Assembly: GCA_017554285.1 (NCBI GenBank)
Contig: JAFZIQ010000113.1
Location: forward strand, 1 to 51,797
Reading direction: 5' to 3'
Source of the DNA: Selenomonadaceae bacterium
GTDB lineage: Bacteria > Bacillota > Negativicutes > Selenomonadales > Selenomonadaceae
DNA: 51,797 nt
Shown: positions 20,923-46,900 of the stretch, piece after piece
Numbering within the stretch: position 1 is the first letter of the stretch
Layout of the letters: every line of letters begins with the position of its first letter
The notes under the pieces: model-generated
What the model was told of the DNA's origin: nothing
The model's input: the letters and a program-made list of their open reading frames with translations, nothing else
Database searches by the model: none
Translations under genes and position numbers: made by a program

Positions 20923-22032
20923 TTACTTTTGAATCAAACTCATCATTTGATTAGCGGCGGTTAATCGCAGTAATTCTTCGATAGACTTCAAACTTTCTTT
21001 ATCGGATGAACTATCGGAAATGATTTTTTTCGTTACAAAGCTAATGGAATCTTTAATCTCCGTATAATTAGCAGTCGAAGTATCGGCGAGCGTGGAAATC
21101 TTTTCGGCTAAGCCGCCGACAGAATCTTTAATCTCCGTATGATTCGCAGTTGAAGTATCGGTAAGCGCGGAAATCTTTTCAGCTAAGCCGCCGACAGAAT
21201 CTTTAATCTCCGTATGATTCGCAGTTGAAGTATCGGCGAGAGCGGATATTTTTTCAGCTATGCCACCGACAGAATCTTTAATCTCCGTATGATTAGCAGT
21301 TGAAGTATCGGTAAGCGCGGAAATATTTTCAGCTACGACACCGACAGAATTTTTAATCTCCGTATGATTAGCAGTCGAAGTATCGGCGAAAGCGGATATT
21401 TTTTCAGCTACGTTACCGATAGAATCTTTAATCTCCGTATGATTTGCAGTTGAAGTATCGGCAAGCGCGGATATTTTTTCAGCTACGTTGCCGACAGAAT
21501 CTTTAAGCTCCGTATGATTTGCAGTTGAAGTATCGGCAAGCGCGGAAATTTTTTCAACTACGCCGTCGACAGAATCTTTAAGCTCTGCATGATTAGCAGT
21601 CGAAGTATCGGCAAGCGTAGAAATTTTTTCAACTACGCCGCCGACAGAATCTTTAAGATCTGCATGATTAGCAGTCGAAGTATCGGCAAGCGCGGAAATC
21701 TTTTCAGATACGTTGCCGACAGAATCTTTAAGCTCGGTATAATTCGAGTTGGAAATATTGGCAAGTGCAGTGATTTTCTTCGTCATAACGTCGAATGAAT
21801 TTTTAATCGCCAAGTGATTCGCGGTTTCCGCATCGGCAAAAACGTAAAGTTTGTTCGTTATAATATCGAGAGAATTTTTTAGTTCCGCATGATTCGAGGT
21901 TGACATTTCAACGAGCGCGGAAATTTCCGCAGTAAGTGCGTCTATGCCGGTACGCAATGCCTTGATTTCTTGAATCAATTCCGCGTGATTCCTTTGCGTC
22001 ATTAGTCCCAGCTTAAGAAAAAATTCTTCCAA
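20923..22032 (-). CDS. Coiled-coil protein of twelve 25-residue repeats
   Basis: The 369-residue protein has a 40-residue helical start and then twelve tandem repeats of 25 residues (41-340). The repeats have the consensus ADTSTANHTEIKDSVGG and a xAEKISAL end. A 29-residue tail, LKSIEELLRLTAANQMMSLI, closes the protein. Hydrophobic positions fall in a regular helical spacing, so a long rod or coiled coil is likely. There is no signal peptide or membrane segment. The start is TTG at 22032, behind AAGGAG and directly after the stop of the previous gene. The tail resembles the end of the neighbouring 22033-22350 protein, so the two may bind the same partner. It is last in the seven-gene operon. 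The function is unknown. Confidence 0.8.
   Translation of the reverse strand: MEEFFLKLGLMTQRNHAELIQEIKALRTGIDALTAEISALVEMSTSNHAELKNSLDIITNKLYVFADAETANHLAIKNSFDVMTKKITALANISNSNYTELKDSVGNVSEKISALADTSTANHADLKDSVGGVVEKISTLADTSTANHAELKDSVDGVVEKISALADTSTANHTELKDSVGNVAEKISALADTSTANHTEIKDSIGNVAEKISAFADTSTANHTEIKNSVGVVAENISALTDTSTANHTEIKDSVGGIAEKISALADTSTANHTEIKDSVGGLAEKISALTDTSTANHTEIKDSVGGLAEKISTLADTSTANYTEIKDSISFVTKKIISDSSSDKESLKSIEELLRLTAANQMMSLIQK
21013..21912 (-). repeat. Twelve tandem 75-base coding repeats
   Basis: Each 75-base unit encodes one 25-residue repeat. Units 4-11 are highly alike at DNA level, and the terminal ones are more diverged, as expected if the array grew by unequal exchange in the middle. 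Copy number should vary between strains. Confidence 0.9.
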
Positions 22033-22350
22033 TCAAGATTCTCCTTCCAAATTATTTATCAATCGCGTTGCCACGTCGAGCCGCAAAAATTCTTCAAGTG
22101 ATTTCAGTTGCTCAAGCGTCGGTTTTAAGTCAGATAATTCGTTTCGTCTCAAATCGTTTGCTATTGCAAGCTGTTCATCGATTTGCCGCGTCGACCGTTC
22201 ATTAATTTCAAGCCGTAAATTTATTTCGTCGTTTTGCCGTTGAACTTTAAAGTTAAGCATGTCAAGTTTATCTTCAAGCCGATTAATCATCGACAAAATC
22301 TCTTGCTGTTGCCTTAAAATTATTTCCTGTTGCTCCAAATATTTTTCCAT
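22033..22350 (-). CDS. Short coiled-coil protein
   Basis: A protein of 105 residues, helical throughout and rich in Gln and Glu (LEQQEIILRQQQEILSMINR). It ends in LKSLEEFLRLDVATRLINNL, which resembles the last residues of the next protein in the operon (LKSIEELLRLTAANQMMSLI). An in-frame GTG at 22371 is an alternative start inside the radical SAM gene; the ATG at 22350 behind GGTGG is preferred. There is no membrane segment. It probably forms a dimeric or higher coiled coil. I recognise no named family. Confidence 0.65.
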   Translation of the reverse strand: MEKYLEQQEIILRQQQEILSMINRLEDKLDMLNFKVQRQNDEINLRLEINERSTRQIDEQLAIANDLRRNELSDLKPTLEQLKSLEEFLRLDVATRLINNLEGES

Positions 22351-22361
22351 GCCATCCACCG

Positions 22362-23714
22362 TCACTCGCACATAAATTCCATGTAGGCTTGAATCATATA
22401 CCGTTCAATCATACAAGCGGCGTCGCCCGTTCGCATATTCGACGCGCAACCGCTCATGCATTTGGGCAAAAATACACAGGCAACGCATTCTTCGCGCAAA
22501 GGTTCATCAAGCCGCGCCTTATTAACTTTATCCGAAAGTCTTTTCAAAGTGCCCAGAGCTTTTTCTTTACGCCCGACCAAGTGCTCACAGTTATAAATCC
22601 TGCCGTAAACGTCAACGGAAAAAGCTTGCGGATCGTTTCTCATACATGGCAACGTTCGCGGAAAAGAGTACAGCCGATTATTTATACTCAACTTTTCGGG
22701 ATTCGCTGTCGCTCGAAAAATTTCCTTAACAAATGAAACTTTCTCGGCGTCGCTCAACTTGTCCTTAACGCCCGTCACGAACGCCGGATAATATACAACG
22801 GTTTTCTTGCCATCAAAACGCGCCTGCAAAACGTAAATCAAATTCAAAATGTCATTCATGTTTTCGCGGTCGGTATTCAGACGAATGTCAACATGAATAT
22901 TCGCTTCGGCAAGCCACGCAATACGATTAAGAATTTTTTTGAAAACCGCCCGTTGCCCGTCGACGTAACCTTTACGCTTGGCATATTGCTCAGCCGTGCC
23001 GTCCAATGTGATTTGTACTCCGCGCAGATTCCATTTCTTAAATTTGCTCTCAATAAGCCGCCGCGTTATCAAACTGCCGTTGGTTATCGCAAACGTTTCA
23101 TATTCAAGCCCCGCCTCGCCGAGCCGCTTGGTAACTTCATCAATAATTTTCGGATTAAGGAAAGGCTCGCCGCCAAACCAATTCAACTTGACGGGCGAAT
23201 CTTTTTTATGCTCCTTGATAAAGTCAATCAGCGCGTCGATTTTAGTTTCGTCGAAGTCAACATGTTTAACGCCGTGTTCGTAGCAGTAAGGACAGCGGGC
23301 GTTGCATTTCAGCGTTGTCGTAATGTTCACGGATAAATGATTTGAATTTTTGCGCGACTCCTGCCGCCACAATCGATAACTTTCCCGCTCGTCAATATCA
23401 GCCGTAACCAACAAGCCCGATTCCAAAAATTTCCGCCGCAAATCTTCATCACATGGCTGTTTGTCGTTCAATTTCAGAAATTCATCGGGCGTCAATTTCA
23501 ACATGGCATTATAAAGCGTGTTGTAAACCAAAATTTTTTTCGGCGTCTCGACGCAAAAATTAAAGACCGAAGATTTAACAGCGGCAGTTTTTATTTCCGA
23601 CTGAAGATTTTTATTGAGTTCGTCGAAAGTTTTCCGCCCGTCGAAATTGAAACCCTTGCCGACAGCGTACAGCGTGAACAGAATTTTTTCGTTCCCCGAC
23701 ATTAAAGTTTCCAT
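22362..23714 (-). CDS. Radical SAM/SPASM enzyme, possible peptide maturase
   Basis: Residues ~1-110 form an N-terminal region with ILVYNTLYNAMLKLTPDEF, as in peptide-modifying radical SAM enzymes. CNARCPYCYE at 137-146 is the CxxxCxxC cluster-binding motif, followed by WFGGEPFLNP and ITLDGT. The last ~90 residues carry a SPASM-type set of cysteines (NCEHLVG, CVACVFLPKCMSGC, AACMIERY) for extra iron-sulfur clusters. Such enzymes install thioether or other crosslinks in ribosomal peptides or modify proteins. The gene lies six bases after one encoding a protein with 13 N-terminal cysteines, the obvious candidate substrate. Alternatives are sulfatase-type maturation or a chaperone-like role. Translation starts at ATG 23714 behind AGGTGAGG. 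Confidence 0.85.
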   Translation of the reverse strand: METLMSGNEKILFTLYAVGKGFNFDGRKTFDELNKNLQSEIKTAAVKSSVFNFCVETPKKILVYNTLYNAMLKLTPDEFLKLNDKQPCDEDLRRKFLESGLLVTADIDERESYRLWRQESRKNSNHLSVNITTTLKCNARCPYCYEHGVKHVDFDETKIDALIDFIKEHKKDSPVKLNWFGGEPFLNPKIIDEVTKRLGEAGLEYETFAITNGSLITRRLIESKFKKWNLRGVQITLDGTAEQYAKRKGYVDGQRAVFKKILNRIAWLAEANIHVDIRLNTDRENMNDILNLIYVLQARFDGKKTVVYYPAFVTGVKDKLSDAEKVSFVKEIFRATANPEKLSINNRLYSFPRTLPCMRNDPQAFSVDVYGRIYNCEHLVGRKEKALGTLKRLSDKVNKARLDEPLREECVACVFLPKCMSGCASNMRTGDAACMIERYMIQAYMEFMCE

Positions 23715-23720
23715 AACGCC

Positions 23721-24497
23721 TCACCTGCCGCCGATGCCTAAATTTTTCGTCGCCAATTCGTTATACATCACGTCGCACAAGTCCGCATAGTACATGTATT
23801 CAACCTGCTTTTCGGCGAGCCGCGAATCTTCCTGTTCCTTTAACTTCTTTAAGTCCTCAAAAGCACGAGTCTCTTGCGCCATAACGTTATTGAGTTCTTT
23901 AATTCGATTTTGAATCTCGCGTTCGATAGCGTCGGATTGTTCGCGAACAGAATCTTCAATCTCCGTAATCAAATCTTGAATCGCATCGTGCATTCTCGCG
24001 GCGTAAAAATCATCAAAGTTTTTCTTGCGTTTGGTATCGTCCAACTCCGCCAAAATCGTAGAAACTTCCGAATCGCTGCTGTGAATTCTGTTTTTAAGTC
24101 TGGTACCGATAAATCCGACAATCTTCTTCCGCAACTCTTCATTAAGCTCGCGAATCTTATCAATGTTAATATCTAAATTTTTCCCGCCGATTTTCGTCCT
24201 GTTGACTTCTTTAAGCCATTCGATAAATTCTGCCATTGTCTTGTTGACGTTATCAACGATTTGTTTTTCTTCTTCCGCCGCATTCTTTTCGGCACGGTCT
24301 GTCATTTCAGCCAGCTCATTTGCCGTCTTTATCGCATGGTCTTCTTTAGGAGTTGAACTGCTTGAACTGACGCCGCAATTACCTACACAACAGCCGCTGT
24401 CACTGCAAGAATCAAAGACACAACAAAATCCGCAATTACCTACGCAACAAGCCATTACACAACAATCACCGACGCAACAACCGCCGCCTCCACCCAT
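23721..24497 (-). CDS. Protein with a 13-cysteine N-terminus and helical domain
   Basis: The first 41 residues hold 13 cysteines, mostly as CC pairs in Gly-rich context (Cys 7, 8, 12, 13, 17, 18, 22, 25, 26, 31, 36, 37, 41). CCVGNCG occurs twice and SSSSS follows. The remaining ~205 residues are charged and helical, with DINIDKIRELNEELRKKI, LAELDDTKRKKNFDDFY and a long coiled coil. This helical part resembles residues ~70-190 of the LpxD-fusion protein encoded just upstream ([18 protein letters not shown]). There is no hydrophobic signal. The cysteines may bind metal or clusters, be lipidated, or be crosslinked by the adjacent radical SAM enzyme. Translation starts at ATG 24497 behind AAGGAGG. 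I know of no family with this combination. Confidence 0.85.
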   Translation of the reverse strand: MGGGGGCCVGDCCVMACCVGNCGFCCVFDSCSDSGCCVGNCGVSSSSSTPKEDHAIKTANELAEMTDRAEKNAAEEEKQIVDNVNKTMAEFIEWLKEVNRTKIGGKNLDINIDKIRELNEELRKKIVGFIGTRLKNRIHSSDSEVSTILAELDDTKRKKNFDDFYAARMHDAIQDLITEIEDSVREQSDAIEREIQNRIKELNNVMAQETRAFEDLKKLKEQEDSRLAEKQVEYMYYADLCDVMYNELATKNLGIGGR

Positions 24498-24500
24498 AAT

Positions 24501-26129
24501 CTATTCCTCCTTAATAATTTTCTTTAACTTGGCAAGCCGCCTTAACTCATCTTTATGTTCGCGACTGAACATGCCCGAAACTTTTTGACCTGCGCGGATA
24601 TTTTTAGTAACGCCCGACTTGGAAAGGATAATCGCGCCTTCGCCGACAGTTACCCAATCTTTAATTCCGCTTTGCCCGAAAATCTGAACACGGTCGCCGA
24701 CAGTGACATTGCCGGCAATTCCGACTTGCGACACAATCAAACAATCCGCGCCGATTTTTACATCGTGCGCTATTTCAACGAGATTGCCTATAATCGTGCC
24801 CGCGCCTATAACCGTATCCGAAAACGTGCCGCGCTGAATCACCGTATTTGCTCCGATTTCAACGCCGTCTTTTATAATCGTCCGCCCGACGCCGCAAAAA
24901 CTTTTCTGCTTGCCGTCAAAGTCGTAATGATAATGGCAATTCACGCCGACGCGACTGCCCGAAAGAATTTTCACGTTGTCGCCTATTTGAGTACCCGAAC
25001 CGATAAAAACACCCGAATCAATACGGCAATTCTTTCCGAGCTTAATATTTTCTCCTATGCTCACGAACGGCGCAATAATCGTGCCTTCGCCGACTTCGAC
25101 ATTCGCCCCGAACATTGAATTATCCCGCGCAGTTTGTTCAAAATTTTTTTCGTAGTCGGGATAAATTCCTTCGGCAATCATCAGCCGCGCAACTTTTATA
25201 ATCGCCGCGTTAAACTCTTTGAAGTCGCAGTACAGAAAATTTTTTTGAACGGACACAAGTCGCGGCTTCGTCAAAACAGATTGCGCCCGCGTCCGAAAAA
25301 TATCTTTCTCGCTGTAAGCAATGGCAAGAGAATTTTCGTCCGCCTCGTGAGCATACTTCAGCGAAAAAATTTCTGCCTCGTCGTCGCCCGCTGTCGTAAA
25401 TTCCAATTCCGCCGCAATATCCTGCAGACGAATCGATTTAACGGGAATCATTTCTTTGACTTGGTTAATGTGGGCTTTGAGCACGTCGCAAGCGGAATTC
25501 TTTTTATCCTCGATGAATTGTTTGGTTAGTTCGTGCACTTCGCCGAGTTTGTCGGAATGCTTGCCTTTATCCGCGAGCTTTTTCTCCAGCGCGGAAATAT
25601 CTTTGTCGATACTCTCAAATTGAACTTGAAAGAATGTCGCCGTTTTGGAAAGTAAATCTTTAACCGCGTTGCAAAAGAGCCGCTCGTAAAACGCCTCAAA
25701 ATTTTTTCTGCGCTTGGCATCATCCGGCTCGCCCAAAATCACGACGACTTCTTTATCTTCGGGAACAAGCCGCCGTTCAACTTTGGCGACGATAAAGCCG
25801 CTGACTTCCGCGACAAATTTTTTCTCTATCGTATCCAAATTTTCAACGTCGAATTTCAACTTGTGCCCCGCGTACTTCTTTTCGACAGTGAATTGATTCA
25901 GAAAGTCTTTAAGCTCCGCCGTGCTTTGGCTGACGAAAGAAAACAAAACTTCTTCGGGTGCTCGCGCCATTTCTTGAATACGAATCTTTGCCGCGCTTAT
26001 CTCGTCGGTATCGTTCGGCTCGTGCTGAGCGGGAACTTCCATGTTTCTAAAGAGAAAAGAATCGTTAAAGCAAACATCGCCGACCCGATGATACGCTAAG
26101 CAATCGACGCAAACAGGTTGTCCGCCCAT
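24501..26129 (-). CDS. LpxD-like acyltransferase fused to a zinc/helical domain
   Basis: The 542-residue protein is an unusual fusion. Residues 1-30 hold cysteines (CVDC, later C20) that may bind zinc. Residues ~45-215 form a charged helical domain related to that of the cysteine-rich protein downstream. Residues ~230-535 match LpxD over its whole length: a uridine-binding-like N-domain, a left-handed hexapeptide helix ([19 protein letters not shown] and onward), [10 protein letters not shown], and the catalytic His in [12 protein letters not shown] (His 455). LpxD adds a second acyl chain to UDP-acylglucosamine in lipid A synthesis. Standalone LpxD has ~340 residues and lies with other lipid A genes. 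Its presence here in a dynamin operon suggests a different acyl acceptor or a targeting role. Translation starts at ATG 26129 behind GGAGG. Confidence 0.85.
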
Positions 26130-26141
26130 AATTCATTCCTC

Positions 26142-27674
26142 CTATTTGCCGGGCGTATTGAGCTTTTTACGAAGGCTGTCGCAGATTTTTTTGGCGCGTT
26201 TGTCCGTCTTATCCTTGACTTGCTCGATAATCGCCTTGAGTTGCTCGGTCGAATTCTTAACGGCGTCACAGCGTTTGAGTTGCTCTTGAAGTTGTTTTTC
26301 CAATTCTTTGCCGCTTGAACGAGACGCCTTCAAAAGTTCTTCCGTGCTGTCCTTTTTCTCTTTGGTCGTGCGCGTGAGATTGTACTTAATATCCAGAAAC
26401 TTCTTTTCGATTTCGTTCGTCAAAAGTCGTTTATATCTTGCGGCGAGATTTTCACGAATCACGCGCAGAATCGTTTCAACGTTGGCTTTCTTTTGCATGG
26501 CGCGTAAATCTTGCGGCAATTCGTAATCGAAATCCAATGCGAATTTTTTCAAAGATTTGAGTCCCTTTTTGTCTAACGAATCATAATCGCGGCAGAGATT
26601 GTAAATATACGCCGCCGAATGCATGATATTTGTTGATGCCGTCGCTTGCATGTCGAAGAATGCCGGTCCTGTTAATCGCTTTACCAAATATTTTTTTTGC
26701 TCCCGCCAATCATCTTCCGGATCGTTTAAAACGTCCCAATGAGTAGCGACTATGTGAACTTTGCTTTTGTTATCGGACGAAAACGCGAAGACGGACGCGA
26801 TTGTATCTATTTCTTCCTTCTGAATTTTCTGCGCGTCTATGCAAACGAAAACGGCGTTGGCGCGGCGAATATATCCCTTAGTCAATTCGGAACGATAAGC
26901 GACAGGGTCTGAAAGTCCCGGCGTGTCGACAAAGACAACTTGCGGCGGAAAATCTTTTCCCAGCGTCGAAATGCCTACTTCAATTTCTTTAACAAAATAA
27001 TGTTCTGCCCGCTTTGAACTCGACCAAATTTTAAGCTCGTCCTCAATTTCTTCGTTAGCCAATTCCTTATGAATCGGCGCGTGATTAATCCATTTATCCT
27101 TGTGCTTGTCGCCTTGCAATTCCTCATATTCCGCCATGAAAGCCGATGCGCCGCTTGTACGCGAATTCCAAAGTTTAGTCCATTCGCTTTGAGTGTAGAA
27201 AATTATTTTTACATAATCGCGAGGGCTTGAACGAAATTTTGTAAGCGCGGCAGTTTCGGGCGTGACAGCCATTGATGCATAATTTTTTCCGAGCAATGCA
27301 TTAATCAATGTCGACTTGCCGGTTTTAATCGTGCCGACAAAGGCAATTTGGAAATCGGGATTTCTGCACAGGCTCAAAAAGTCCGACATTTTTTGAACGA
27401 CGGCAGAATTATTTTCCGCGCCCATGCCCGGAATTTTAAAGAGGGCGTCGAATCTCTCGACTTTGGCTGAATAAGCGTCGATAACCGCGTCCCAGTTAAT
27501 AGGCTCGTGCGGAACGTGTAAAAGATTTTCGACGACGCGCATCATTTTTACTTCGGGCAATTCGTAAGCGTTTTTATCGAAATCCTTAGTGCGTAGGAAC
27601 GTGCCGCATTTCTCGCAGAAGTTGCGCGTGTCCCGATTTTCAAAGCGACATTTGCCGCAAATAATTTTTCCCAT
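26142..27674 (-). CDS. Zinc-ribbon dynamin-like GTPase
   Basis: The protein has 510 residues from the ATG at 27674 (GGAGAAAG upstream). A zinc ribbon opens the chain (CGKCRFENRDTRNFCEKCG). The GTPase domain follows: G1 GTIKTGKST (114-122), a switch threonine near 138, G3 DTPG (250-253) and an NKxD-like G4 in THWD (311-314). Residues ~390-510 are a long helical region with strong coiled-coil character. This is the layout of bacterial dynamin-like proteins, which bind and reshape membranes. No hydrophobic paddle is obvious, so membrane contact may come from partners. It is second in the operon, after an unknown 148-residue protein. The zinc ribbon and the partners set it apart from DynA, LeoA and IniA. 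Confidence 0.85.
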   Translation of the reverse strand: MGKIICGKCRFENRDTRNFCEKCGTFLRTKDFDKNAYELPEVKMMRVVENLLHVPHEPINWDAVIDAYSAKVERFDALFKIPGMGAENNSAVVQKMSDFLSLCRNPDFQIAFVGTIKTGKSTLINALLGKNYASMAVTPETAALTKFRSSPRDYVKIIFYTQSEWTKLWNSRTSGASAFMAEYEELQGDKHKDKWINHAPIHKELANEEIEDELKIWSSSKRAEHYFVKEIEVGISTLGKDFPPQVVFVDTPGLSDPVAYRSELTKGYIRRANAVFVCIDAQKIQKEEIDTIASVFAFSSDNKSKVHIVATHWDVLNDPEDDWREQKKYLVKRLTGPAFFDMQATASTNIMHSAAYIYNLCRDYDSLDKKGLKSLKKFALDFDYELPQDLRAMQKKANVETILRVIRENLAARYKRLLTNEIEKKFLDIKYNLTRTTKEKKDSTEELLKASRSSGKELEKQLQEQLKRCDAVKNSTEQLKAIIEQVKDKTDKRAKKICDSLRKKLNTPGK

Positions 27675-27690
27675 AATACTTTCTCCGTTT

Positions 27691-28137
27691 CTAATCGACA
27701 AATTTTAATAATTCATTAGGCTCAATCGACAACGCAAGCAAACTGTAATCGGTAAAACCTTTTTCCGTGTGATAACATTCGCCGTCGTAATTGATACCGA
27801 ACTCCGCGATATAGAGCTTGGGATTTTTGGCGAGTTCCGAAATTGCTTTACGCAAAATATCTCCGAGCGAATATCTCTTTGCAAGTGAAGTTTCAGCCAT
27901 CTTTGCGAAGTTTTCATTTCTTACGGCGTCGCTGTTTTCTATGACAAAAAATTTCAGCTCGCGTTTATTCGGAAGTTTATTTTCATCAACGATTTTCTCA
28001 ATCAATCGGACGGTTGCTTCGCGAATTTTATTCGTCTCGTACTCGAAAAAAGGTTTGCCGCCAATGTAAAAGGGCTTGCGAGCGTCGTCGTAAAGATAAA
28101 ATTTGTTTTTGCATATTGCCAGATAAAATTTCGTCAT
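27691..28137 (-). CDS. Unknown protein at the head of the dynamin operon
   Basis: A 148-residue soluble protein without signal or membrane segment. It begins MTKFYLAICKNKFYLYDD, alternating beta-strand-like, then is helical (REATVRLIEKIVDENKL, GDILRKAISELAK). I recognise no family. GGAGGATAAGGC lies before the ATG, and the dynamin gene starts 16 bases after its stop. Being first in a tight seven-gene operon, it likely works with the GTPase, perhaps as its regulator. That is inferred from position only. Confidence 0.7.
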   Translation of the reverse strand: MTKFYLAICKNKFYLYDDARKPFYIGGKPFFEYETNKIREATVRLIEKIVDENKLPNKRELKFFVIENSDAVRNENFAKMAETSLAKRYSLGDILRKAISELAKNPKLYIAEFGINYDGECYHTEKGFTDYSLLALSIEPNELLKFVD

Positions 28138-28238
28138 GCCTTATCCTCCGTCATTTCCAAAAAAAATTCCGCTTAATTTTATCACAAAATTTCTGCGGTA
28201 AAGTTTACCCTGTAGAATTACTTTTTGACTGAATAGTT

Positions 28239-34903: not shown

Positions 34904-37900
34904 TTACTTATTGTTCTTGTCATTGCCGCTGTAGACAATAGTATCGCCTTGCTTGCCGAGACTAGTCGAAGGTGTAATGGAAAGTTCGGAATCACCAAGC
35001 ACGTATCCACCCGCTGCGAGCGCAGAATCTTGTTTCGTAAGGTCTTTGAGATCCCTTATATCAATACTCAGATCAATGAAGTTGCCTTTATCGTCTTTCT
35101 TGGCAGTGTTCGTAATACTTATCTTGTTTTCATTATTTTCAGTAGTGACGCCGTAAAGAATATCTTTCAGTGTGATCGAACCTTTGACAACGCGCTTGTT
35201 GTCCAGCGTGACATCGATTCTGACGTCGTTCACTTCGCCGTCGCCGTCATAATCGAATTTTTCATAGCAGATTGCTGACTTCACAGAGACGGAAGCCGTT
35301 GTGATGTTAATCTTGTCTTTAGCGAAGTCGAAGTCCGCGATAACGTCGTTTCCGTCGTCTTTAGCGTAGACGAAGACATTATTATCCCCGTAGAAGGTGA
35401 CATAGTCATTGCCTTTGCCTGCGTTGACAGTGGAGTTGGCACCACTGACGGTTACGTAGTCATTGCCGTTACCTGCATTGACAGAAGCACTTTCGCCGCC
35501 CACGCTGATACTATCGGAGCCGGTGGAACCCGTTACCGAAACAGCCGTAGTATCGTCGTCGAAATCGAATTCGTATCTGCTGCTGGTGACTGTAACTTTA
35601 TTGAGGCTGTCAAGATCACTTGCCGCCAGATTAATTGTTCCTCTGTCGACATCTGTCGAATGACCGTCAAATGTAAAGTCTGCATTCTTACTGAGACCCT
35701 TGATGCTCGCAAGCGTAACTTTGCTGTTAGCCTTCGTGTAGGTGAGAGTCTTTTCATCGTCCGAGAGATAGAAGCCGCCGGTTATCGCGCCTTTCAGCGT
35801 TGCACTGCCCTTGCTGACCGTCCAAGTTTCGTCGCTGATCTCGTTCTTTTGATAATCGTCGCATTGGAGAATGTAATCGCCCTTTGTAACTTTTACCGTC
35901 GTAGTGCCGAGATTGAGCTCCGGATTAAGAGTGATTATGCCGGTGGTTTGTACTTCGGTTACATCGTAAATTTTGTTACTTATCGTTTCTGTCTTTGTCC
36001 TGTAGGTGGGCGCGACAACTTCAATACCGTCAATTTCTCCGTCAACTGCTTTGACACCTTTCTTGAGACCGGTAACTGTTCCGATAACTGTGGATTTGGC
36101 GGCTGTGTAATTGACGCCGATAGCTTTTTCTTTATTCGTATCCGAGTTGGCATAAGCTAAGCTGTAACGAATAGGCGTATTTTTCTTAAGAGTCGCGGTG
36201 ACGGTTGTGCTTCCACTCGTGCTCCAAGTATCGTTCGTGTTTGCGTCGAATTCATCGTCGCTATCAACGACGTCATCGGCGAGAGCGAGCTTATAGTTGC
36301 CGCCGACCAGAGTTTGGTTGGTAAGCGTAACCTTAGACGAGGCGAGGGCGTTGGCTCCGATTGTGATTGTGCCGCTGTCATCGTCGACTTGAATATCGTC
36401 TGCCGTAACTTCGGTGCTGTTTCTGAGACCTTTGACAGTCGCGAAAATATTGCCGCTGATTGTCTTCGTGTAGACGATGCTGTTGCCGTCGCTTGCTTCC
36501 GAATAACCTTGTGCAGTGTCTTTCTTGATTGTTGCGGTGCCCTTGCTTACAGTCACTTCAGGCGTAGAGTTGTTTGTTCTTTCAATGTTGTCACCCAAAA
36601 CGAGCTTGTATTTGTTTACGGATTTTGTCGTTCCACCAACCGTGACTTCGACCTTGTCTTTCGTAGTAATCGCTATGGTCTTGCTGTCGAGTAAGTTTTT
36701 ATTGTTGATAGTGACTGCATATCTGCCATCGGTATCAGCTGAAGTTGCTACGATTATGCCGTCAATATTATCAATACCATCCTTGGCAGAGGTGATTGCA
36801 CTAGCTTTGAGACCGGTGATTTTAATGTCTGCAGCACTGGGACGTTTCGGAGCTTTGTAAGTGATAGTTTTCTTTTTAGTGTCAGTCGAGGTATCAAGCT
36901 CGTAGGTTGCCGCCGCGACTGCTTCATAAGTAAGAGTCGAATTGTTGCTGTAGAATTTATTTCCTGCTGTTGCGGTGTTGGTGTAGGTGTAAGTGTTTTC
37001 TTTTTTAACTATCTCATTATCAGATTCGCCTTCGAGGAATTCAAGAGCACCTGTATTGATTGTAACGTTGGCGGCACCGAGAAGGTGCTTCGATACCTTG
37101 ACAGTTTTAACGGTTTTCGCATCGTCATTATTAAGCTCAACCGAAATTTTGCTTGAGTCTTTGAAGTCTTCTTCTGTGGCACCGATAAGACCGGTAATTG
37201 TTACCTTAACATTGGACGAGGTTGCTTTCTTGTAGTTGAGGCTCTTACCGTCAGTAGAAGACGTGTAGTAAGAAAGTGTGCCGCCGCCGTAGGAAGCATT
37301 TCCTTTGGCTTTGTCGGTGATAGTCCATGCTGTACCTGCGTCTTTAGAGTTTGTACGAACCGCATGGTCGCCATTTTCATCGAGAACGAGTGTATAGGCG
37401 TTGCTTGTGAGTTTAACTTTGCCGTTAACGTCTTTGGTGTCTTCGTCAAGCGCGAGACTGTTAAGAATAATCTTACCTGCGTCCTCACCGGTACCAAATT
37501 TGATAGCTTTCTTATTTTCATCGTTACTATTCAAATCGCTTTGGTTTATACCTTCCTTGAGACCCTCGATAGTCGCGAGAGCTTTCTCATCGCCATTCGG
37601 TAAATAGGTAACGGTTTTGCCGTCGCAATAGTAGGATTGTGCAGGAAGAACTTGATTGTAAGTTGCCGTCGTGCCGTCGACTGTCCATGATTTAGTGATG
37701 GTTTTACCACTGTTGGGATTGGAGTCAGTATCGGAATTGTCGAGAGCAAGCTTATAATCGCCGCCGTTGATAGTGACTTTCGAGGTACCGAGTGCGTTTT
37801 TCTTAAGCGTGACTGTGTTGGTCGCAACATTAACAATGCAATCGGCAGATGTATCACTGGTGTCAGTACTTACTTTGGCACCATTTTTAAGCCCCGTGAT

Positions 37901-40900
37901 TGTTGTCTTAACAGACGTTGCAGGATTATAGACAACTTTGCCGTTATTGGTGCCTTCCGTCGGGATTTCATAACCTGCGGGCGTTTCATTTGTTATGGTT
38001 AAGGTTCCACTTACGGTATTTGATGACAATTTTGCCGTAGCTTCAGACTTCGTGACGTCACTATCAAAGGCAAGTTTATATTTCGCGCTTGTTTTACCCG
38101 AAGTGCCCTCAATGCTGACAGTACTCTTGTTAAGTGCATCTTTGGACAGCTTGATTTTTTCGGAGTTTGTTTTGCTGTCGACTGTAACAACTTCTCTCTC
38201 AGTACCGTTTACAAGTTTTTTGAGTTTATTACCTTCGACTGTGAGATTGCTACTGAGACCTTTGACCGTAACTTTACCGAAAGCGTTATCCTTATCGTAT
38301 ACAGCTTTAGTATATGTAAGTTCTCTTCTGACTCCACTAACAGTCTTGGGCGTATACGTTGCAGCTGTAGTGACATTTTGCAAGATTGCGTTCGAGCCGA
38401 TCAAGCTCCATTCAAGTCCTGTGCTTCCTGTGATAGTATTACTGGCGAATTCATAATTATTATAACCTGAAGAAATCTTGACATTACTTGTGCCGAGAGC
38501 CGCAGCAGTAACAGTAATTGTACTTTTGGTAGCGTTTCCGACCGGGTCAGAAATTGTTACGCCTGTGAGCGCAGTCTTATAGTCCGTACTGTTGTTATTG
38601 TTTGCATCAATTGAGAGACCCTTTTGGAGACCGGTGATTGAAAGTAAGGTTTCAGTCTTCTTCGAGCCGTTGTAAGAAATCGAGCCGTCCGCGTTGATTG
38701 AATAGCCTTTTTGTGTAGTCTTCTTAAGGGTTGCAGTTGTGCCGCTGACAGTCCACTCGATTGTAGAATCGCCGGACTTAGTGACATCATCGCCGAGTTT
38801 AAACTCGTAATTCGTTTTGTCGTTGAGAGTGACAGCGTTAGTGCTTGTGCCGAGTACCGCCTTAGACAAAGTGACAGGATACTTTCCGCTGGAGCTGTCT
38901 GTAGTGGTTCCGATTTCGATACCGTCAATCGTGCCGTTGCTGTTGAGTTTGAGACCGCTCTTAAGGTTAGTGATTGTTAAGGCAGTTGAAGGAGTAACAG
39001 TTGCTGCTTGGTAAACAATCTTGCCTGCATCGGTTTGACCTGTAGCCGGAATTATATAACCTGCAGTCGTGCCGGCACCATAGGAGACCGTCATTTTATC
39101 GATAGTATAGATAGCACTTGCCGATTTGGGTTTAGCATCCTCTGTTACAGCGAGTGCATAACTGCTGCCGGTAGCGTTTTTGATTGAAACTTTGCTCTTC
39201 GGATCAAGTACGTCTGCAGAAAGCGTAATCGTGTTAGCTGTTTTTGTGTAGTCGATACCGTCAATGTCGCCGACCGCGTTAGCCGCAAGACCTTTCTTGA
39301 GACCGGTGACAGTCGCGAGCGTTGTGTTAAGACCGGCTGACTTATACTCAAGGGTTGATTTCAAACCGTCGGTTTTGAGTTCATAACCTGCAGTTGTACC
39401 TTCTTTAAGGTAAACCGTCGTGCCGCTGACAACCAAGCCTTTGCCTGTAGTGCCTTCAGCTGAGGGCGTAAGACCGGTGGCGTCAAGGGCATAAGTTTGA
39501 TTCTTTTCATTCGTAAGGACGATGTTGTTTTTGCCGAGCGCGTTCGGATTAAGTTTGACAGTGTTACCTTCCAACGTGATTGCAGACGTAGTACCGTCTT
39601 TGCTGAGAACGAGTTCGCCATTTTTGACTTCAACGCCGGTGAGACCCGTAATTTTCGCTAACTGACTTGTAGTGGTAGGCTCTTTGTACTTAATTTCCTT
39701 ATTGGCGTTTGTGCCTGTAGTGGTAAGCTCATAACCGGCACTCTTACCTTGATAGAGAGTTGCTGATTTACCGTCAGATGCGGCTTGCCAGACTTTGGAA
39801 TCGTCCTGCGGTTTATGGTTATTGGCATTTTCAAGCGTGATTGTGTAACCGTCGCCCGTAACGGAAATATCGTTGCCGCTAAGGGCTTTGTCTTTTACGG
39901 TGACGACTTTATTGCTTATCGTGATGAGCTCGTTGCCTTCTTTGTCGACGACTTTACCCTCGTTAGAAAGTTTAGCTCCTTCAGGCAGACCTTTGACAGT
40001 TGCCAGAGTTGTTTCGACTTTATCAATGCAAGCAACAGAAGTATATGTATCATTATCGAACTTAGCATAAGCAGAAATGACGCTTATAAGTTTTGCGCTC
40101 GTGCCGTCGACAGTCCATTTTTCTGTTGCTTGGGGAGCAACGGCGCTTGTTGCACAGATTTTGTTGTTGTCATTACTGAATTTATAAGCCGTGCTGTCTT
40201 CAATCTTGATGGTAGCTGTACCTGCTTCCGCAAGTAAGGAATCACTTAACGTAATTATGCCTCTGTTTTCAGTTGATACAGAACCGTCGTCGCTGATAGT
40301 AGTCGGATGAACGACTGTAATAGCTTCGACTATGTCACCGTTGGCATCCTTAACGTAATTGCCGTTCGTATCTTTAAGATAGAGCTTACCGCTGTTAGTT
40401 TCTTCGACATTGGCATTGATACCGCTGATTGTGAAGAGCGTCTTTGTCTCGGCAGGTGAGTAATGAATCGCCGTAGCTTTGTCGCCGTCTTTTACAAGAG
40501 TGTAACCCGCAGTGGTTTCAGCCGTATATTTAATAGTCTTTTTACCGCTCTTGGTTTCGACTGTCCAAGCATAACTGTTATTGACAGTTCCCGGTCTGGT
40601 GACTGTGCCGAAGACGAACTGATAATTATCGCCGGAGATCGAAGCGTCTTTGCTTGAAGTGGTGCCGAGTGCGCCATTAGAAATGGTGACAGTGCCGCCC
40701 GTCGCTCCAGTAGCTTTGGTAATAGTAACAGCGTCGTCGAGTGTGCCGTCGTCTTTAGTGTAAAGAAGTTTGTTGCCGTCATCGCTGACAGTAAGGTTGG
40801 TTGCAAGGTTGGTGATTGTTACATATATCGTGCCTGCAGTTGTATCAACGAATTGGATTGCACCTTTGGAATCTTTTTCGTAATGAGCAGGAACGGCATT

Positions 40901-43900
40901 TTTGTAAGTTGCTGTGCCATTGCTGACAACCCAGAGGTCTTTTTCAGCGGGAGACGTGCCGTTTTCATAGAGAGTTTCGTCGGAAAGCGCAAGTTCATAG
41001 CTGCCGTCAATCGAAACTTTCTTGCTGATTATTTCCTTAGACAGCATAACCGTTCCCGTGTTGTCGTCGACAATAACTCCGTCAATCGAGCCGTCGGCGT
41101 TGGCAGTTACTGTGCTCTTGAGTCCGCTGATCGTCAAAATCTTTCCTTGCTTGATTTCTTTCGTGTAGGAAATAGATTTGCCGTCTACTGATTCCGAATA
41201 ACCTTCTTTAATATCGCCCTTCAGAGTTGCATTACCCTTGCTTACTGTCCAAGTCAGATTCTCGGAATTGGGATTTGCAATCTTTCCGTCTTTAACAAGC
41301 TTATAATCGCTGTCTGCAACGGTATTGACAATATCTTTTTTATTAAGTGCGTAGCCGCCAATCCAAATTGAAGAACCGCCGCTCATAAGGGAAACAGCAA
41401 CCGAAGTGCCGCCCGTAAAGACGAGAGATTTTCTGTCTTCACTGACTTCGAGACTTGTATTGAGTCCCGTGAGACTTGCCAAATCACTTACGACAGATTC
41501 TTCAGTATACTTTGCAATAAGCCCGGTGATTCCGTAATAATCGGTTTTAATGTTTTCGTAGGTTGCAACGCCGCCGATGATTGTCCAAACATTTTTATCG
41601 GTTGCCGTTTGCGCAACGCCGCTGTCGAGAGAGATTTTAAATGTCTGACCTTTGGCATTGTTAAGCGTCGCACTGTGCTTATCGAGTACCTCATTATAAA
41701 GTTTAATTGTTTTGTTATCGTTACCGGCGAACGAAATACCCGCTATCTTACCGTTTGACGCCTGAATATTAGCCGCAAGTCCTTCAATTGCTGCAAGTGA
41801 CGTAGGTGTTTCTGCAGTGTAGGTGATAGTATTTTCATCTTTGTCAAATATCCAACCTTCACCGATTTTGTACTGATAAATTGCAGTTCCATAGTCGCCA
41901 CTTAATGAGGTTACCCATTCTTCGTCTTTTTTAGTGAAACCGCTCTTGCCGTCATCCGCGCCGTCATCCGCGTCGTTTTTAAGCTTGAACGAATAACCTT
42001 CTACAGCTGACACTGAATTATTAACAGTGGTTTTGCTTAAGATAGATTCGTCGAGTGTGATTGTTCTGTCATTGGCGACCGAGATACCAGCAATGTTATT
42101 GGCTTTCTTTTCGTCGCCTGCTTTTATACTAATGCCGCTGAGACCGGTAACAGTTGCGAGCGTTGTGTTGGTTGCTCTTGTGAAAGTAATACTCATGCCG
42201 CCTTCATTGAGCGTCCAACCTTTTCCGATGTCATGAATGTAATATGCGCTACTCGAATCATTACCACTGCCGATAGACCAATAATCTTCTGCAACGCTGG
42301 TCGAACCTTGTCCGACGAAACCGAGTGTTGTCTTACTGTCACCGACCGAAAGTTTATAATCACTGCCGTTGCTGAGTCCGAGAGAAATAACTCCGTCGCC
42401 GAGCAAATTTTCAGTCAGAGTAATTGTTCCTTTGTATTCGCCATTTGCCTTATTACCTGTTTCCTTGACTATGCCATTGAGTTTATCAACTGTAGCACCG
42501 CTGAGACCGGTAATAGTTGCAAGTTCTGTGACTTTGGAATCTACATGTTTGATTTTGCCGTCAATACCGAGTATCCAGCCTTCTGCCGTCGTGTACTGAT
42601 AAGTTGCACTTGTGCTGTCGGAGCCGATTACCCAAACAGGATCCGCCACACTGAAACCATATTTGGTAACGCCGTCTTTAGTTTCTGTATTCAATGCGCC
42701 GGAGAATCCGAGTGCATAAGTAACGCCGTCATCGAGGTCGTCATGAACAGAAATTTCAGTTGTGCCGTTGAGGTCGTTCGCTGTCAAATAAATGGTTTTT
42801 TCGGTAGAAGTGCCGCCAACCGCGAAGGTGTGAGTTCCTGCACTGAGACCGGTGACAGTTGCGAGCTTTTTATAAGTTTGGTCTTTACTTGTAAAGGTTA
42901 TGCCGCTACCGCCTGTGTTGAGAGTCCACCCTTTATTGGTAAAAGAATAATAAGTTGATGACGTTCCGCCTGCGGATTTCCATTCATTACCTGCACCGCC
43001 GAATCCGAATGTTAAGGGGTCTCCATCTTCGTCACCGGCACTTGCTCCCGACAACGCGAGTGTGTAAGTTTTTCCTTCCGCATTGGTAAGAGTGACACTG
43101 TCATCTGTAAGAGCCGATTGACTTACACTAATGACAGTTCCGCTTAAGGAAAGATTACTAAGTGCCGTCGAGCTGAGTCCGCTGATTGTTGCGTGCAGAA
43201 TGTCTTTATCTTCATAGAAGGTGAAAGAAATTGCAGATAAGCCGCCTGTAGCCGACGCCGAAGATTTGAGCCAACCGCCACTAAGCGTTTCATTTATTGT
43301 TACAACTGTTGTTGAAGTGTTGTCGAATTTAAAGCCTATGGAGTGCGCCGCATTTGTGATTGGTGTAACACCGTCGAGCGAGAAGTCATAATTAGTACCG
43401 TTTTTATAAGTGAGCGTAATATTATGCTTGTCTTCGAGAGTATCTTTATGATTGAATACATAGTTGGGCAATATGATTGTTGCGGTACTGTAAGAACTTG
43501 CGCTAACGTTAGAGGCAGTGAATTCTCCTTCTGCCAAATCTTTATCGAGACCGGTAATTGTAAAGATAGTTTCGACAGTATCGGGCGTGTATGTTGCACC
43601 GGAGCCGCTTGCATTGAGTGTCCAACCTTTTCCGATATCGCGCTTGAGAGATGCAGATGTTCCCGATATTACCATGTAATCGTTATCTGCACTGAGTTTG
43701 TTATCAAAACCGAGTTCCGTTACATCGCTACCGGAACTGTTCTTGAATTTGAGCGTATAGTTACCACCGTGACTCAAGCCGAGAGCAATAGCCGTATCGC
43801 CAAGCAAACCTTCTGTAAGCGTGATTGTTCCAGAATAACCGCTGTTTTTGGTGACTATGTTACTAAGTTCCGTTGCTTTTATTTTGTTTCTAAGACCGGT

Positions 43901-46900
43901 GATTTTCGCAACGTCGGTATATTCTTCGCCTTTATAAGAAATGCTTGAGGCACCTGCTGCGAGTATCCAGCCTTTATCAGTCTTATACTGATAAGTTGCG
44001 GTTGTGCCGTCGAATTTCCAAGCGGGCTCGGCTATGCCGAAACCGAATGTATCTGCTTTTCCATCTTCGTCACCGGTACTTGCTCCCGACAGCGCGAGCG
44101 TGTAATTTTTTCCTGCCGTATTGGTAAGAGTGACACTGTCATCTGTAAGAGCCGATTGACTTACACTAATGACAGTTCCGCTTAAGGAAAGATTACTAAG
44201 TGCCGTCGAGCTGAGTCCGCTGATTGTTGCAAAGTTATTGTCTATCGCCTCTGCATAAGTTAAGGACGTGCTGTCACTGCCGTAGCTCCAACCTGCCGCG
44301 AGCGTCTCTTTAACCAAGACTGTGCCGGCTGTTGTGCCGCCGGACAAAACTGTATCGGCTGATTTCCCGGTAATATTGGAAATACCTGCGTCGAGCGCGA
44401 GTTTGAAAGTAAGACCGTCAGTTTCATCGTTATCAATAACCTCAACTGAACTGGCACCGGTGAGCGCGTTAGCTTTCAATGTAAAGGTTATAACGCCGCT
44501 TGCGCCGGGAGTGGTATCACCCGATGCAACAATGTCGCCTAAAGAATATCCGCCATTCAAGCCGATTATGGTTGCGAGATTCTTGCGTGTAACCCCTAAA
44601 ACGTCTGTATCTGTGAAGGTTATACCTTTGTTGCCGGCGTTGAGAGACCAACCTTTTTCAGTGTGGAAGTAGTAAGTTGCCGACGTTCCGGCTTTTTCCC
44701 AAGCATTGCTCAGAGAGCCGAAACCGAATGTATCTGCTTTTCCATCTTCGTCACCGGTACTTGCTCCCGACAGCGCGAGCGTGTAATTTTTTCCTGCCTC
44801 ATTGGTAAGAGTGACAGATGCATCTTTAAGAGCCGACCGACTTATATTAATGACAGTTCCGCTTAAGGAAAGATTACTAAGTGCCGTTGAGCTGAGTCCG
44901 CCGCTGATTGTTGCAAAGTTATTGTCTATCGCCTTTGCATAAGTTAAAGACGTACTGTCACTGCCGTAGCTCCAACCTGCCGCGAGCGTCTCTTTAACCA
45001 AGACTGTGCCGGCTGTTGCGCCGCCGGACAAAACTGTAGCGGCTGATTCACCGGTAATATTGGAAATCGAGCTGTCACCTGCGATAGACAATTTGTATGA
45101 AATTTTATCTTTAGTGTATTCGTCTTTGACTTTAACAGTCTTTCCGTCAGTCTCGTCAAGCAAATCTTTCGTTAAAGCGATCACTCCGACATTGTTCGAA
45201 TCGATTACAATCGAAATACCTGCGAGTTGAGCCGCCGATAAGCCACTCTTAAGACCGGTAATTTTTGCATGATTAATAGTTGCCGAAGCCGAATAAGCAA
45301 CGTATTTGTCATCTGTAAGTGTCCAACCTTCGCTGATGTCATGCTTGTAGTACACGTCTGAACCGGAGGAAGCAAAGTAATTGGGCTTGTTTTCAAAGAA
45401 ACCAACCCTATTGTCATTCGCCTTAGTGCCGTCCATGCCGCCGCCGCTGTCTCCGCCGAGTTTGAGTTTATAACCTTTTCCCGTGTCTAAGGACAACGTC
45501 ATTTTATTACTTGTATCTTTAAATTTAAGAAGGAATTCATCGGACAGCGTGATAACTTTGTCTGCAACACTGATACCGGCAATTTGGTAACTGTCATCTT
45601 CGGAGTCGATTGCTTTGACAGCTGAAATACCTGCGGTTTTCGAAAGATTGTTAATTGTTAAAAGTGTTTGGGCCTCTCCGTTTTCAGTATACTTGATTCT
45701 GGAATTGTTGAGAAGTTTCCAACCTTCTTTAGTGTAATGTTGATAGGTTGCAACGCCGTTATCGAAAGACCAATAATCCTTGCTCGTCTCAAAGCCAACA
45801 GTATTATCTGAGGACATTCCTGACATTGTCAGCTTTAAATTTTTATCAAATTTATCAACTGTTTCTTGAGAGAGCACAATAGCCTCTCCACTGCCTTTTA
45901 ATGCGTCTCTCGTCAAAGTGATTGTCGTGCCGCTTAAAGAGATATTTGAAGCGGAAGCATTTGTACCGAGACCGGTAATAGTCGCAAGCTGTATGGTATC
46001 AGGAGCATTGTATTTGACAGATTTACTTTCGCTGCCAAGTGAATACCAACCCTGCGTTGTGCCCATTATTGTCGCAGTTTGACTTACAATGGAGGTAATA
46101 GATGCACCTAAATTGCTGTCGTAGATGCCCGATGCCGTAGCTTTTGAGATACCCGCGAGTGAGAAAGTGTAATCGGCAATGCCTGAAATGCCGGTTGTCT
46201 TTTCATATGAGATACTTGAAGTTCCAAGTACGGCATCAGTTAAAGTGATTGTTGTGCCGCTTATTCCGACGCCCGAAGTTGCACCTAAGCTGAGTCCTTT
46301 TATGGTAGCGAAATCGACGTTACTTTGTGCTATGTAATAATTTATGGATTTTTTGTTGTCCGCAACGACGCCATAAGCATCCGTACTGCCTATGATTTTT
46401 GCCGTTCCGTCGTTAATGGAACTGATTGAATAATTCGGAGTATCTGCAACTGTTTTTGTTGTTTTGATACTGTTGGCAAGTGAGAGCGAGTAATTGCCTA
46501 CTTCAAGTGATACAGTTGAATCAGCATCTGTCTTGAAAACGTTGTTACCCAGCGTGAAGATTGTGCTTTCACCGTTTAAGGTGATACCGGTAAGCGTAGC
46601 GACGCTTGTACCCGAAACAGAGGAATTAAGACCGGTGATTTTCGCAAGCTCCGTGGTTGACGCTCCACTATAGGTAATTTCGCCGTCTTCAAGAGTCCAA
46701 CCTTCTTTAGTGTTGAACCAATAAGAAGCACTACCGCCACCGGCAGTCCATTTGCTTGCTTCTTTCTCGAAACCTGTCTTGCCGTTCTCCTGTCCGTCAT
46801 TACTATCGCCCTCAAGCACGAAGCTGTAACCACCGCTGATAACGGATACCGTAGCTTCCGGTGATGGATCTTTCGGCAGAATACTTTTACTCAGCGTGAA

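Follow-up and report, generated by a model that had tools for sequence, protein, structure and literature searches.

Layout of the operon

The window, meaning here the whole 51,797-nucleotide stretch of a Selenomonadaceae genome under study (GenBank assembly GCA_017554285.1, contig JAFZIQ010000113.1, positions 1 to 51,797), carries on its minus strand a run of seven tightly packed open reading frames (ORFs), A to G, at 20923..28137, which encode among others a dynamin-like GTPase (B), an LpxD-like acyltransferase (C), a helical protein with a Cys-rich N-terminal tail (D) and a radical SAM/SPASM enzyme (E). Judged by comparison with other genomes, this operon is a real, conserved multi-gene system without a name, in which E very probably modifies D. 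The compact layout on one strand had been described in a first-pass annotation made from the letters of the DNA alone, and the ORFs do lie at these positions: the gaps from A to G, with B taken from its ATG, are 16, 12, 3 and 6 bases, followed by an overlap of 10 bases and then by 0. In the window and in the other Selenomonadaceae loci read, the operon is flanked mostly by housekeeping genes. The features are listed below (aa, amino acids; L and G numbers are working labels of loci and genomes).

27691..28137, minus strand: gene A, 148 aa, fold of no recognized family; present in 17/17 of the E-bearing loci that also bear HerA
26142..27674, minus strand: gene B, zinc-ribbon-like, dynamin-like GTPase (Dynamin_N), from its ATG; a TTG start at 27701 is possible
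24501..26129, minus strand: gene C, 542 aa, LpxD-like hexapeptide acyltransferase behind a D-type helical domain, from LpxD profile matches and likeness to D2
25569..26054, minus strand: D-type helical domain of C, matched by D at an E-value of 2.1e-14
24507..25421, minus strand: LpxD-like part of C, catalytic-type His kept in 31/31 homologs
23721..24497, minus strand: gene D, 258 aa, Cys-tailed helical partner, predicted substrate of E from its sequence and from D/E co-occurrence
24372..24497, minus strand: Cys-rich tail of D, residues 1-42, CC[VI]x[D/N] repeats recognized by their register
22362..23714, minus strand: gene E, 450 aa, radical SAM/SPASM enzyme, from CxxxCxxC, seven more invariant Cys and profile matches
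22033..22371, minus strand: gene F, 112 aa, short coiled-coil protein with a conserved C-terminal motif (hhalign)
20923..22032, minus strand: gene G, 369 aa, long coiled-coil repeat protein with the C-terminal motif of F (hhalign)
28138..28160, minus strand: leader 5′ of A, separated from A in L094 by the genes for HerA and the 211-aa protein

When the seven window proteins were scanned with Pfam, NCBIfam and PADLOC, B matched Dynamin_N at 58.7 bits (Pfam cut-off 27) and E matched Radical_SAM, with the Cys residues of SPASM-type auxiliary clusters present, which bears out the dynamin-like and radical SAM identities first proposed; A, D and F matched no family above its cut-off in these scans, and a PDB search with A gave only weak, chance-level matches. 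The solved structure nearest to B is 5owv, a GTP-binding protein (E-value 6.6e-23 in the PDB search), and the P-loop and DxPG motifs are kept in 54/54 B proteins of at least 430 aa, shorter ones being excluded from this count and from that of the zinc ribbon. The N-terminus of B is zinc-ribbon-like (CxxC...CxxC), with zinc-ribbon models scoring below their cut-offs, and this element tracks the LpxD-like gene, as it occurs in 30/30 LpxD loci scored versus 4/24 loci without LpxD. Among these four exceptions, L113 stops at a contig end and the LpxD of L097 lies on a different contig, which leaves L137 and L145 as genuine ones.

Pairing of the Cys tail with the radical SAM enzyme

Across loci, D consists of a conserved helical domain, which gives coiled-coil matches in the PDB search, and a variable N-terminus. 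Two homologous kinds, D1 and D2, can be distinguished (hhalign 99.8%); both stand beside a single dynamin in L130 and L132 (Sporofaciens) and in L134 (Fervidicella), and Orenia (L129) has two dynamins. The idea that D is a piece of the dynamin stalk was dropped, as hhalign of D against B gave nothing convincing. In the window, 13 Cys fall within the first 60 residues of D, just as the first-pass annotation had counted.

A Cys-rich N-terminus of D, defined by at least four Cys, is found if and only if E is present in the locus. This holds for all 37 assessable loci (23 with both, 14 with neither; Fisher 1.6e-10, not corrected for kinship), with at most two Cys in E-less loci and no fewer than four in E-bearing ones. 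The remaining 19 of the 56 loci were not assessable, having either no D match or less than 3 kb beyond D without E. Where a locus has several D-type proteins, the count takes the one with most Cys, the fused protein C being among the candidates in L094 and L096; the start of D was shifted to an internal Met in L101, the D frame of L139 is broken near its start, so that its N-terminus was not truly read, and the nearly identical L102 and L103 were counted as one event. These last two, both E-less, retain HerA, the 211-aa gene, A, B and LpxD.

The tail itself is strictly patterned. When D proteins of E-bearing loci with at least four Cys and less than 320 aa were taken together with D of the window, 81 CC pairs were found in 25 tails; V or I stands at +2 in 80 of them and D or N at +4 in 65 (D 39, N 26), and C follows at +5 in 43. 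A DNA pattern of the repeat had a match in 5/41 genomes, one in each and always in the D gene. The repeat lies at the N-terminus of a protein of ~230-280 aa, not in a short precursor with a leader and a C-terminal core.

On the enzyme side, CxxxCxxC and seven further Cys are invariant in all 19 E proteins aligned, out of 24 (23 loci and the window). The window protein is nearest to the CefB, Clo7bot, geopeptide and TIGR04463 maturases and then to PapB, far below all cut-offs (CefB NF038107, 159 of 600 bits; PapB NF047865, 98 of 340; QhpD TIGR03906, 49 of 453), and at 1e-10 or better the PapB model matches 19/19 of the E proteins scanned and the QhpD model 18/19. PapB is reported to cross-link Cys to Asp or Glu in Cys-X3-Asp/Glu motifs and to tolerate variation (PMC9413430). 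Since the repeat of D resembles such Cys-X3-Asp motifs, its tail can be read as stapled with thioethers by E. That the Cys-rich protein is the substrate of the radical SAM enzyme, as proposed in the first-pass annotation, is thus very probable from the concordance and the repeat; that the products are Cys-Asp and Cys-Asn thioethers has somewhat better than an even chance. Distant E relatives of the genus (~30%) were also considered as further maturases of D, and no D gene was present in the seven neighborhoods examined.

The N-terminus of D is usually hydrophobic or amphipathic in E-less loci. With Cys set to neutral, non-Cys tails score 1.48 versus 0.74 for Cys tails (median of the best 15-residue window; p 0.003, ignoring kinship; 13 non-Cys and 25 Cys proteins), and when Cys keeps its normal value, tails with Cys likewise come out as hydrophobic. 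This alternation suggests that the modified Cys repeat may substitute for a membrane-active N-terminus.

Distribution and linkage

A search of 59 other genomes for D gave matches with E-values no worse than 4.6e-60 in G004, G006, G012, G022 and G024, all five from the same genus, and weak or partial ones in three more. At 1e-6 the D profile finds 17/381 genomes of the class, the genome of the window included, in 4/102 genera. A profile of B yielded 56 loci in named genomes, of which 23 have E, and all 23 also have LpxD and a Cys-rich D. These E-bearing loci belong to Selenomonadaceae/Selenomonadales (including Mitsuokella jalaludinii), Lachnospiraceae, Eubacterium (Eubacteriaceae), Ruminococcus and an Oscillospiraceae, and further to a Treponema (metagenome-assembled genome, MAG), UBP6 and one other bacterium. 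The linked system of GTPase, Cys-rich protein and radical SAM enzyme anticipated for several genera therefore recurs, in content and in gene order, in 23 other loci from at least Bacillota and Spirochaetota. When the distances of B, D, E and LpxD are compared with one another across 21 loci, they correlate at r 0.93-0.96 (0/2000 permutations as high; L121 and L144, with split genes, left out). The B tree, built without L144 and L149, mixes families and phyla as expected from transfer, and the distribution is patchy: in two sampled families, 4/397 and 1/396 genomes match the family at 1e-60, centre genomes included. The first-pass annotation had set against a system either a separate occurrence of the genes in close relatives or a one-off juxtaposition; the recurrence in 23 loci speaks otherwise, and only G012, in which A-B (L097) and C-D-E-F (L058) lie on different contigs and an unrelated 1030-aa ORF follows B, leans that way as a copy that may be split.

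No dynamin relative was confirmed in viral contigs or phage records, and in the viral contigs E had only distant relatives. Among plasmids, 14 records matched a dynamin in part, none of them covering more than 80% of the query, and 66 records had distant E relatives, all below 60% identity. Sequencing error or decay has divided three genes into two ORFs each, namely E in L121 (14573-15934), HerA in L107 (5821-8861) and B in L144 (939-2479). An E-less and LpxD-less variant lies at L064:5900-11000 (G003, the same place as L139), where the genes encode a dynamin, a D-type protein whose reading frame seems to be broken close to the start, a long coiled-coil protein and a small one resembling a GTPase. 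In the E-less Lachnospiraceae loci L102 (4403-5512) and L103 (8856-9965), a 369-aa protein with an N-terminal membrane segment is inserted between A and B.

The LpxD-like acyltransferase

Residues 237-540 of C match LpxD just under the model cut-off for NF002060 (204.5 bits, cut-off 207) and further under it for TIGR01853 (205.6, cut-off 242.5). The catalytic-type His of the I[AG]H motif is conserved in all 31 LpxD-like homologs; compared with solved LpxDs, C of the window carries Gln in place of the Asp of IDRG and Gly in place of the Asp of IDN. The first-pass annotation had seen an LpxD fused to a zinc/helical domain. The fusion stands, and the fused domain turns out to be a copy of the helical domain of D, of the D2 type (hhalign 99.8%). 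Only the window, L094, L096 and L058 show this domain joined to LpxD, and it carries a CC repeat of its own in L094 and L096, with none in the window; LpxD is free-standing in the other loci read, and by this comparison the fusion is lineage-specific.

LpxC catalyzes the committed step of lipid A synthesis. Its gene was sought in the genomes of 18 of the 31 LpxD-bearing loci, picked to span groups outside Selenomonadaceae, and it scored over the cut-off in three carriers, weakly in one and with no match in 14, several genomes being incomplete MAGs; the three positive carriers are the Negativicutes among those tested. The genome of the window holds a second, stronger LpxD (355 bits vs 207 for C). 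Because of these 14 carriers and this separate LpxD, C and its relatives probably do not serve lipid A synthesis, which disfavors the UDP-glucosamine acylation that had first been ascribed to C.

The HerA module

A Ser-rich HerA-type ATPase gene lies upstream in 17 of the 23 E-bearing loci, accompanied by A in all 17 and by a 211-aa gene in 16. From this linkage, the HerA-type ATPase and the 211-aa protein belong to the unit, though both are missing from the window and from the first reading of it. In the closest relative, L094, whose B is 98% identical, these two genes stand between ispG and A; in the window they are cleanly absent, and the leader that stands before HerA in L094 is here followed by A. 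The genome of the window, 89% complete, gave no match to HerA. Alignment of L097 with the window runs through B, A and ispG across this junction as well, and the seven genes thus seem to be kept without the HerA module. The 211-aa protein was also considered as a D paralog and rejected by hhalign.

A Ser/Thr protein kinase gene is located directly upstream of HerA in L111 (1557-5876) and one gene away from it in L112 (1516-3783) and L115 (2544-4028), all three being E-bearing loci. In genomes of the same class, ten other HerA places were seen, and six of the eight fetched have a nearby dynamin-type gene that matches B weakly, at 20-38 bits (L201, L202, L203, L204, L205 and L208, in same-genus genomes; not L206 and L207). 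They make up a second, larger HerA-dynamin operon family, with a Ser-rich HerA of ~970-1090 aa, mostly a hydrophobic protein of ~315 aa and dynamins often of ~885 aa. This linkage elsewhere in the genus hints at a wider, unrecognized operon class.

Genes F and G and other neighboring observations

By hhalign, one C-terminal motif is common to F, to G and to the small coiled-coil proteins encoded at other loci. G is built of a 75-base-pair (25-aa) tandem repeat with 9.6 copies at 21047-21765 of the window, and its length varies among relatives (369 aa in the window, 401 in L095, 319 in L094). It passes one Pfam cut-off, TFA2_Winged_2 (32.5 vs 26), with no separate matched stretch, and the match looks like an effect of low complexity. 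G is clade-specific and is not present 3′ of F in G004 (L062).

Elsewhere in the window, a 4291-aa Thr/Ser/Gly-rich ORF at 34904-47779 (minus strand) matches no Pfam family at 1e-5 and has the look of a large repeat protein that is secreted or surface-bound. Among the other dynamin loci, patatin-like phospholipase genes occur directly upstream of ~690-aa dynamins (L146:4820-5875 and L147:8433-9479), and an Escherichia albertii plasmid carries three adjoining dynamin-family genes, probably of Leo type by annotation (L175:4111-9217).

A proposed membrane-acting complex and its alternatives

The sequences directly show the conserved linkage, the co-occurrence of Cys-rich D with E, the repeat and intact catalytic residues; for the chemistry, the acyl acceptor, the action on membranes and the role, we infer the following. 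The operon would encode one membrane-acting complex, in which B is the dynamin-like GTPase and D its helical partner. E would modify the CC[VI]x[D/N] tail of D, most likely by PapB-like formation of Cys-to-Asp or Cys-to-Asn thioethers, and the tail, which probably stays on D because no protease or exporter was recognized among the conserved genes, would become a compact membrane-binding or assembly element. The LpxD-like enzyme may be a repurposed acyl-acyl carrier protein acyltransferase within the complex, acting perhaps on the amino terminus of D or on a lipid. F and G would scaffold the complex through their common C-terminal motif, and HerA with the 211-aa protein would add a motor module, absent in the window. 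The complex probably responds, when triggered, to phage or to damage of the envelope. A dynamin complex with an E-modified Cys tail on D, an LpxD-like acyltransferase and an F/G scaffold is the best explanation of the sequences as a whole, with about equal chances of being right or wrong; a function of the tail as a membrane element is tentative, and a role in defence falls a little short of even. A role in either defence or envelope stress is plausible.

Several observations weigh against this proposal. Asn, frequent at +4, would be an unusual acceptor, and we know of no Asn acceptor for such thioether links; E also scores far under the cut-offs of both PapB and CefB. The absence of E was scored inside the locus only. 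On the B tree each of the two traits, Cys tail and E, needs about three changes, and two independent pairs on well-supported branches agree, which is too few for significance. LpxD occurs without E and without the Cys tail in L102 and L103 and hence need not act on this tail. As for the N-terminus, 3 of the 13 non-Cys proteins are not strongly hydrophobic, and tails of the Ruminococcus type keep an amphipathic stretch behind the Cys repeat, so that replacement would be only partial there. Moreover, no WYL regulator was traced beside E-bearing loci among the matches listed, and the Selenomonadaceae copies have mostly housekeeping flanks.

The strongest alternative, less probable than the defence role though still a serious one, is a machine for envelope maintenance or membrane repair with no part in immunity. 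Other bacterial dynamins are reported to be tied to membrane stress or repair (PMC6104087), and the housekeeping flanks just mentioned fit it as well. The patchy distribution does not, nor do the WYL regulators that adjoin E-less systems (L102, L103, L130, L132 and L147) and, by annotation, a Lachnospira eligens dynamin. WYL accounts for 5/82 flank proteins of one set, and restriction or other defence families for single matches among the same 82, both without a background control; the flank scans covered 154 of 460 flank ORFs, hand-picked by size and nearness. For a microcompartment, which had also been suggested at first, no sign turned up, and no search aimed at shell proteins was made.

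It is improbable that the Cys tail is a metal or Fe-S sensor of the dynamin complex for redox state, oxygen or metal, with E acting elsewhere or helping to build the cluster. The density of Cys and the largely anaerobic carriers, as judged by their names, would suit a sensor, but cross-linking accounts better than free metal ligation for the strict register, in which the +4 residue is acidic or an amide; E has its matches among peptide maturases, and tail and E are concordant. Still less probable is that D is the precursor of a released ribosomally synthesized and post-translationally modified peptide (RiPP), such as a bacteriocin or a signal, whose tail would be cross-linked, cut and exported with the helical domain as follower. 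The relatives of E are indeed RiPP maturases, but the helical domain is conserved also without tail or E, next to dynamins and even fused to LpxD, and the conserved genes include no recognized peptidase or exporter. Finally, the 23 other E-bearing loci of like content, with their congruent distances, refute the idea that unrelated genes came together by chance in a single strain, for which one could cite the ordinary flanks and the possibly split operon of G012.

Returning to the proposed complex, a bolder version of it is unlikely in its entirety: stapled Cys would anchor or assemble the dynamin partner, the LpxD-like enzyme would lipidate an MG-type amino terminus, the complex would be coupled to a HerA-type motor, and the purpose would be immunity or membrane sealing. 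If true, it would be a bacterial counterpart, by other chemistry, of the myristoyl and palmitoyl anchors of eukaryotic proteins. Most known cases of radical SAM cross-linking concern released peptides, and in this operon a protein that is a structural partner to a dynamin GTPase seems to be matured in this way. The natural alternation between hydrophobic N-termini and Cys-repeat tails makes the role of the tail directly testable, and the presence of an LpxD-like enzyme where no LpxC is detected points to an acyl acceptor outside lipid A synthesis.

Comparison with known systems

In the open-access literature (titles and starts of abstracts), no operon of this kind was found among the matches listed for dynamin together with a radical SAM enzyme, LpxD, HerA, Leo/Eleos, a hexapeptide acyltransferase, WYL or a RiPP. 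Given these searches and the scans of the seven proteins against family models, we regard only the combination as new, since the component superfamilies are known. Leo dynamin systems, also named Eleos, are alike in that B matches the PADLOC models LeoBC (E-value 4.3e-12) and LeoA, each in part. They have two dynamins, however, in place of the one in the window operon, and D, the LpxD-like enzyme, E and HerA are not Leo parts. We take 5owv to be a structure from the study of the Campylobacter jejuni pair Cj-DLP1/DLP2. This pair likewise is reported as a dynamin working with an operon partner, but the partner there is a second GTPase, whereas here it would be the helical protein D, in the company of acyltransferase, radical SAM and HerA genes (PMC6104087).

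Among radical SAM maturases, the CefB “Cys-every-fifth” model (NF038107) is the best NCBIfam model for E of the window, and the Cys pairs of the tail recur about every fifth residue; the score of E lies well under the cut-off of this model, and no paper on CefB was found in the literature search. QhpD, the quinohemoprotein amine dehydrogenase maturase (TIGR03906), performs thioether cross-linking of an enzyme subunit, not of a released peptide. Its model matches nearly all E proteins scanned, but E of the window reaches only a small part of its cut-off, and substrate and operon are unrelated. PapB (NF047865) is alike in being a radical SAM/SPASM enzyme with a Cys-X3-Asp substrate motif (PMC9413430). 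Its definition covers the Asp form of the repeat, while Asn, often present at +4, falls outside it and the 340-bit cut-off is not reached; and the predicted substrate here is the N-terminal tail of a ~230-280-aa helical protein encoded beside a dynamin.

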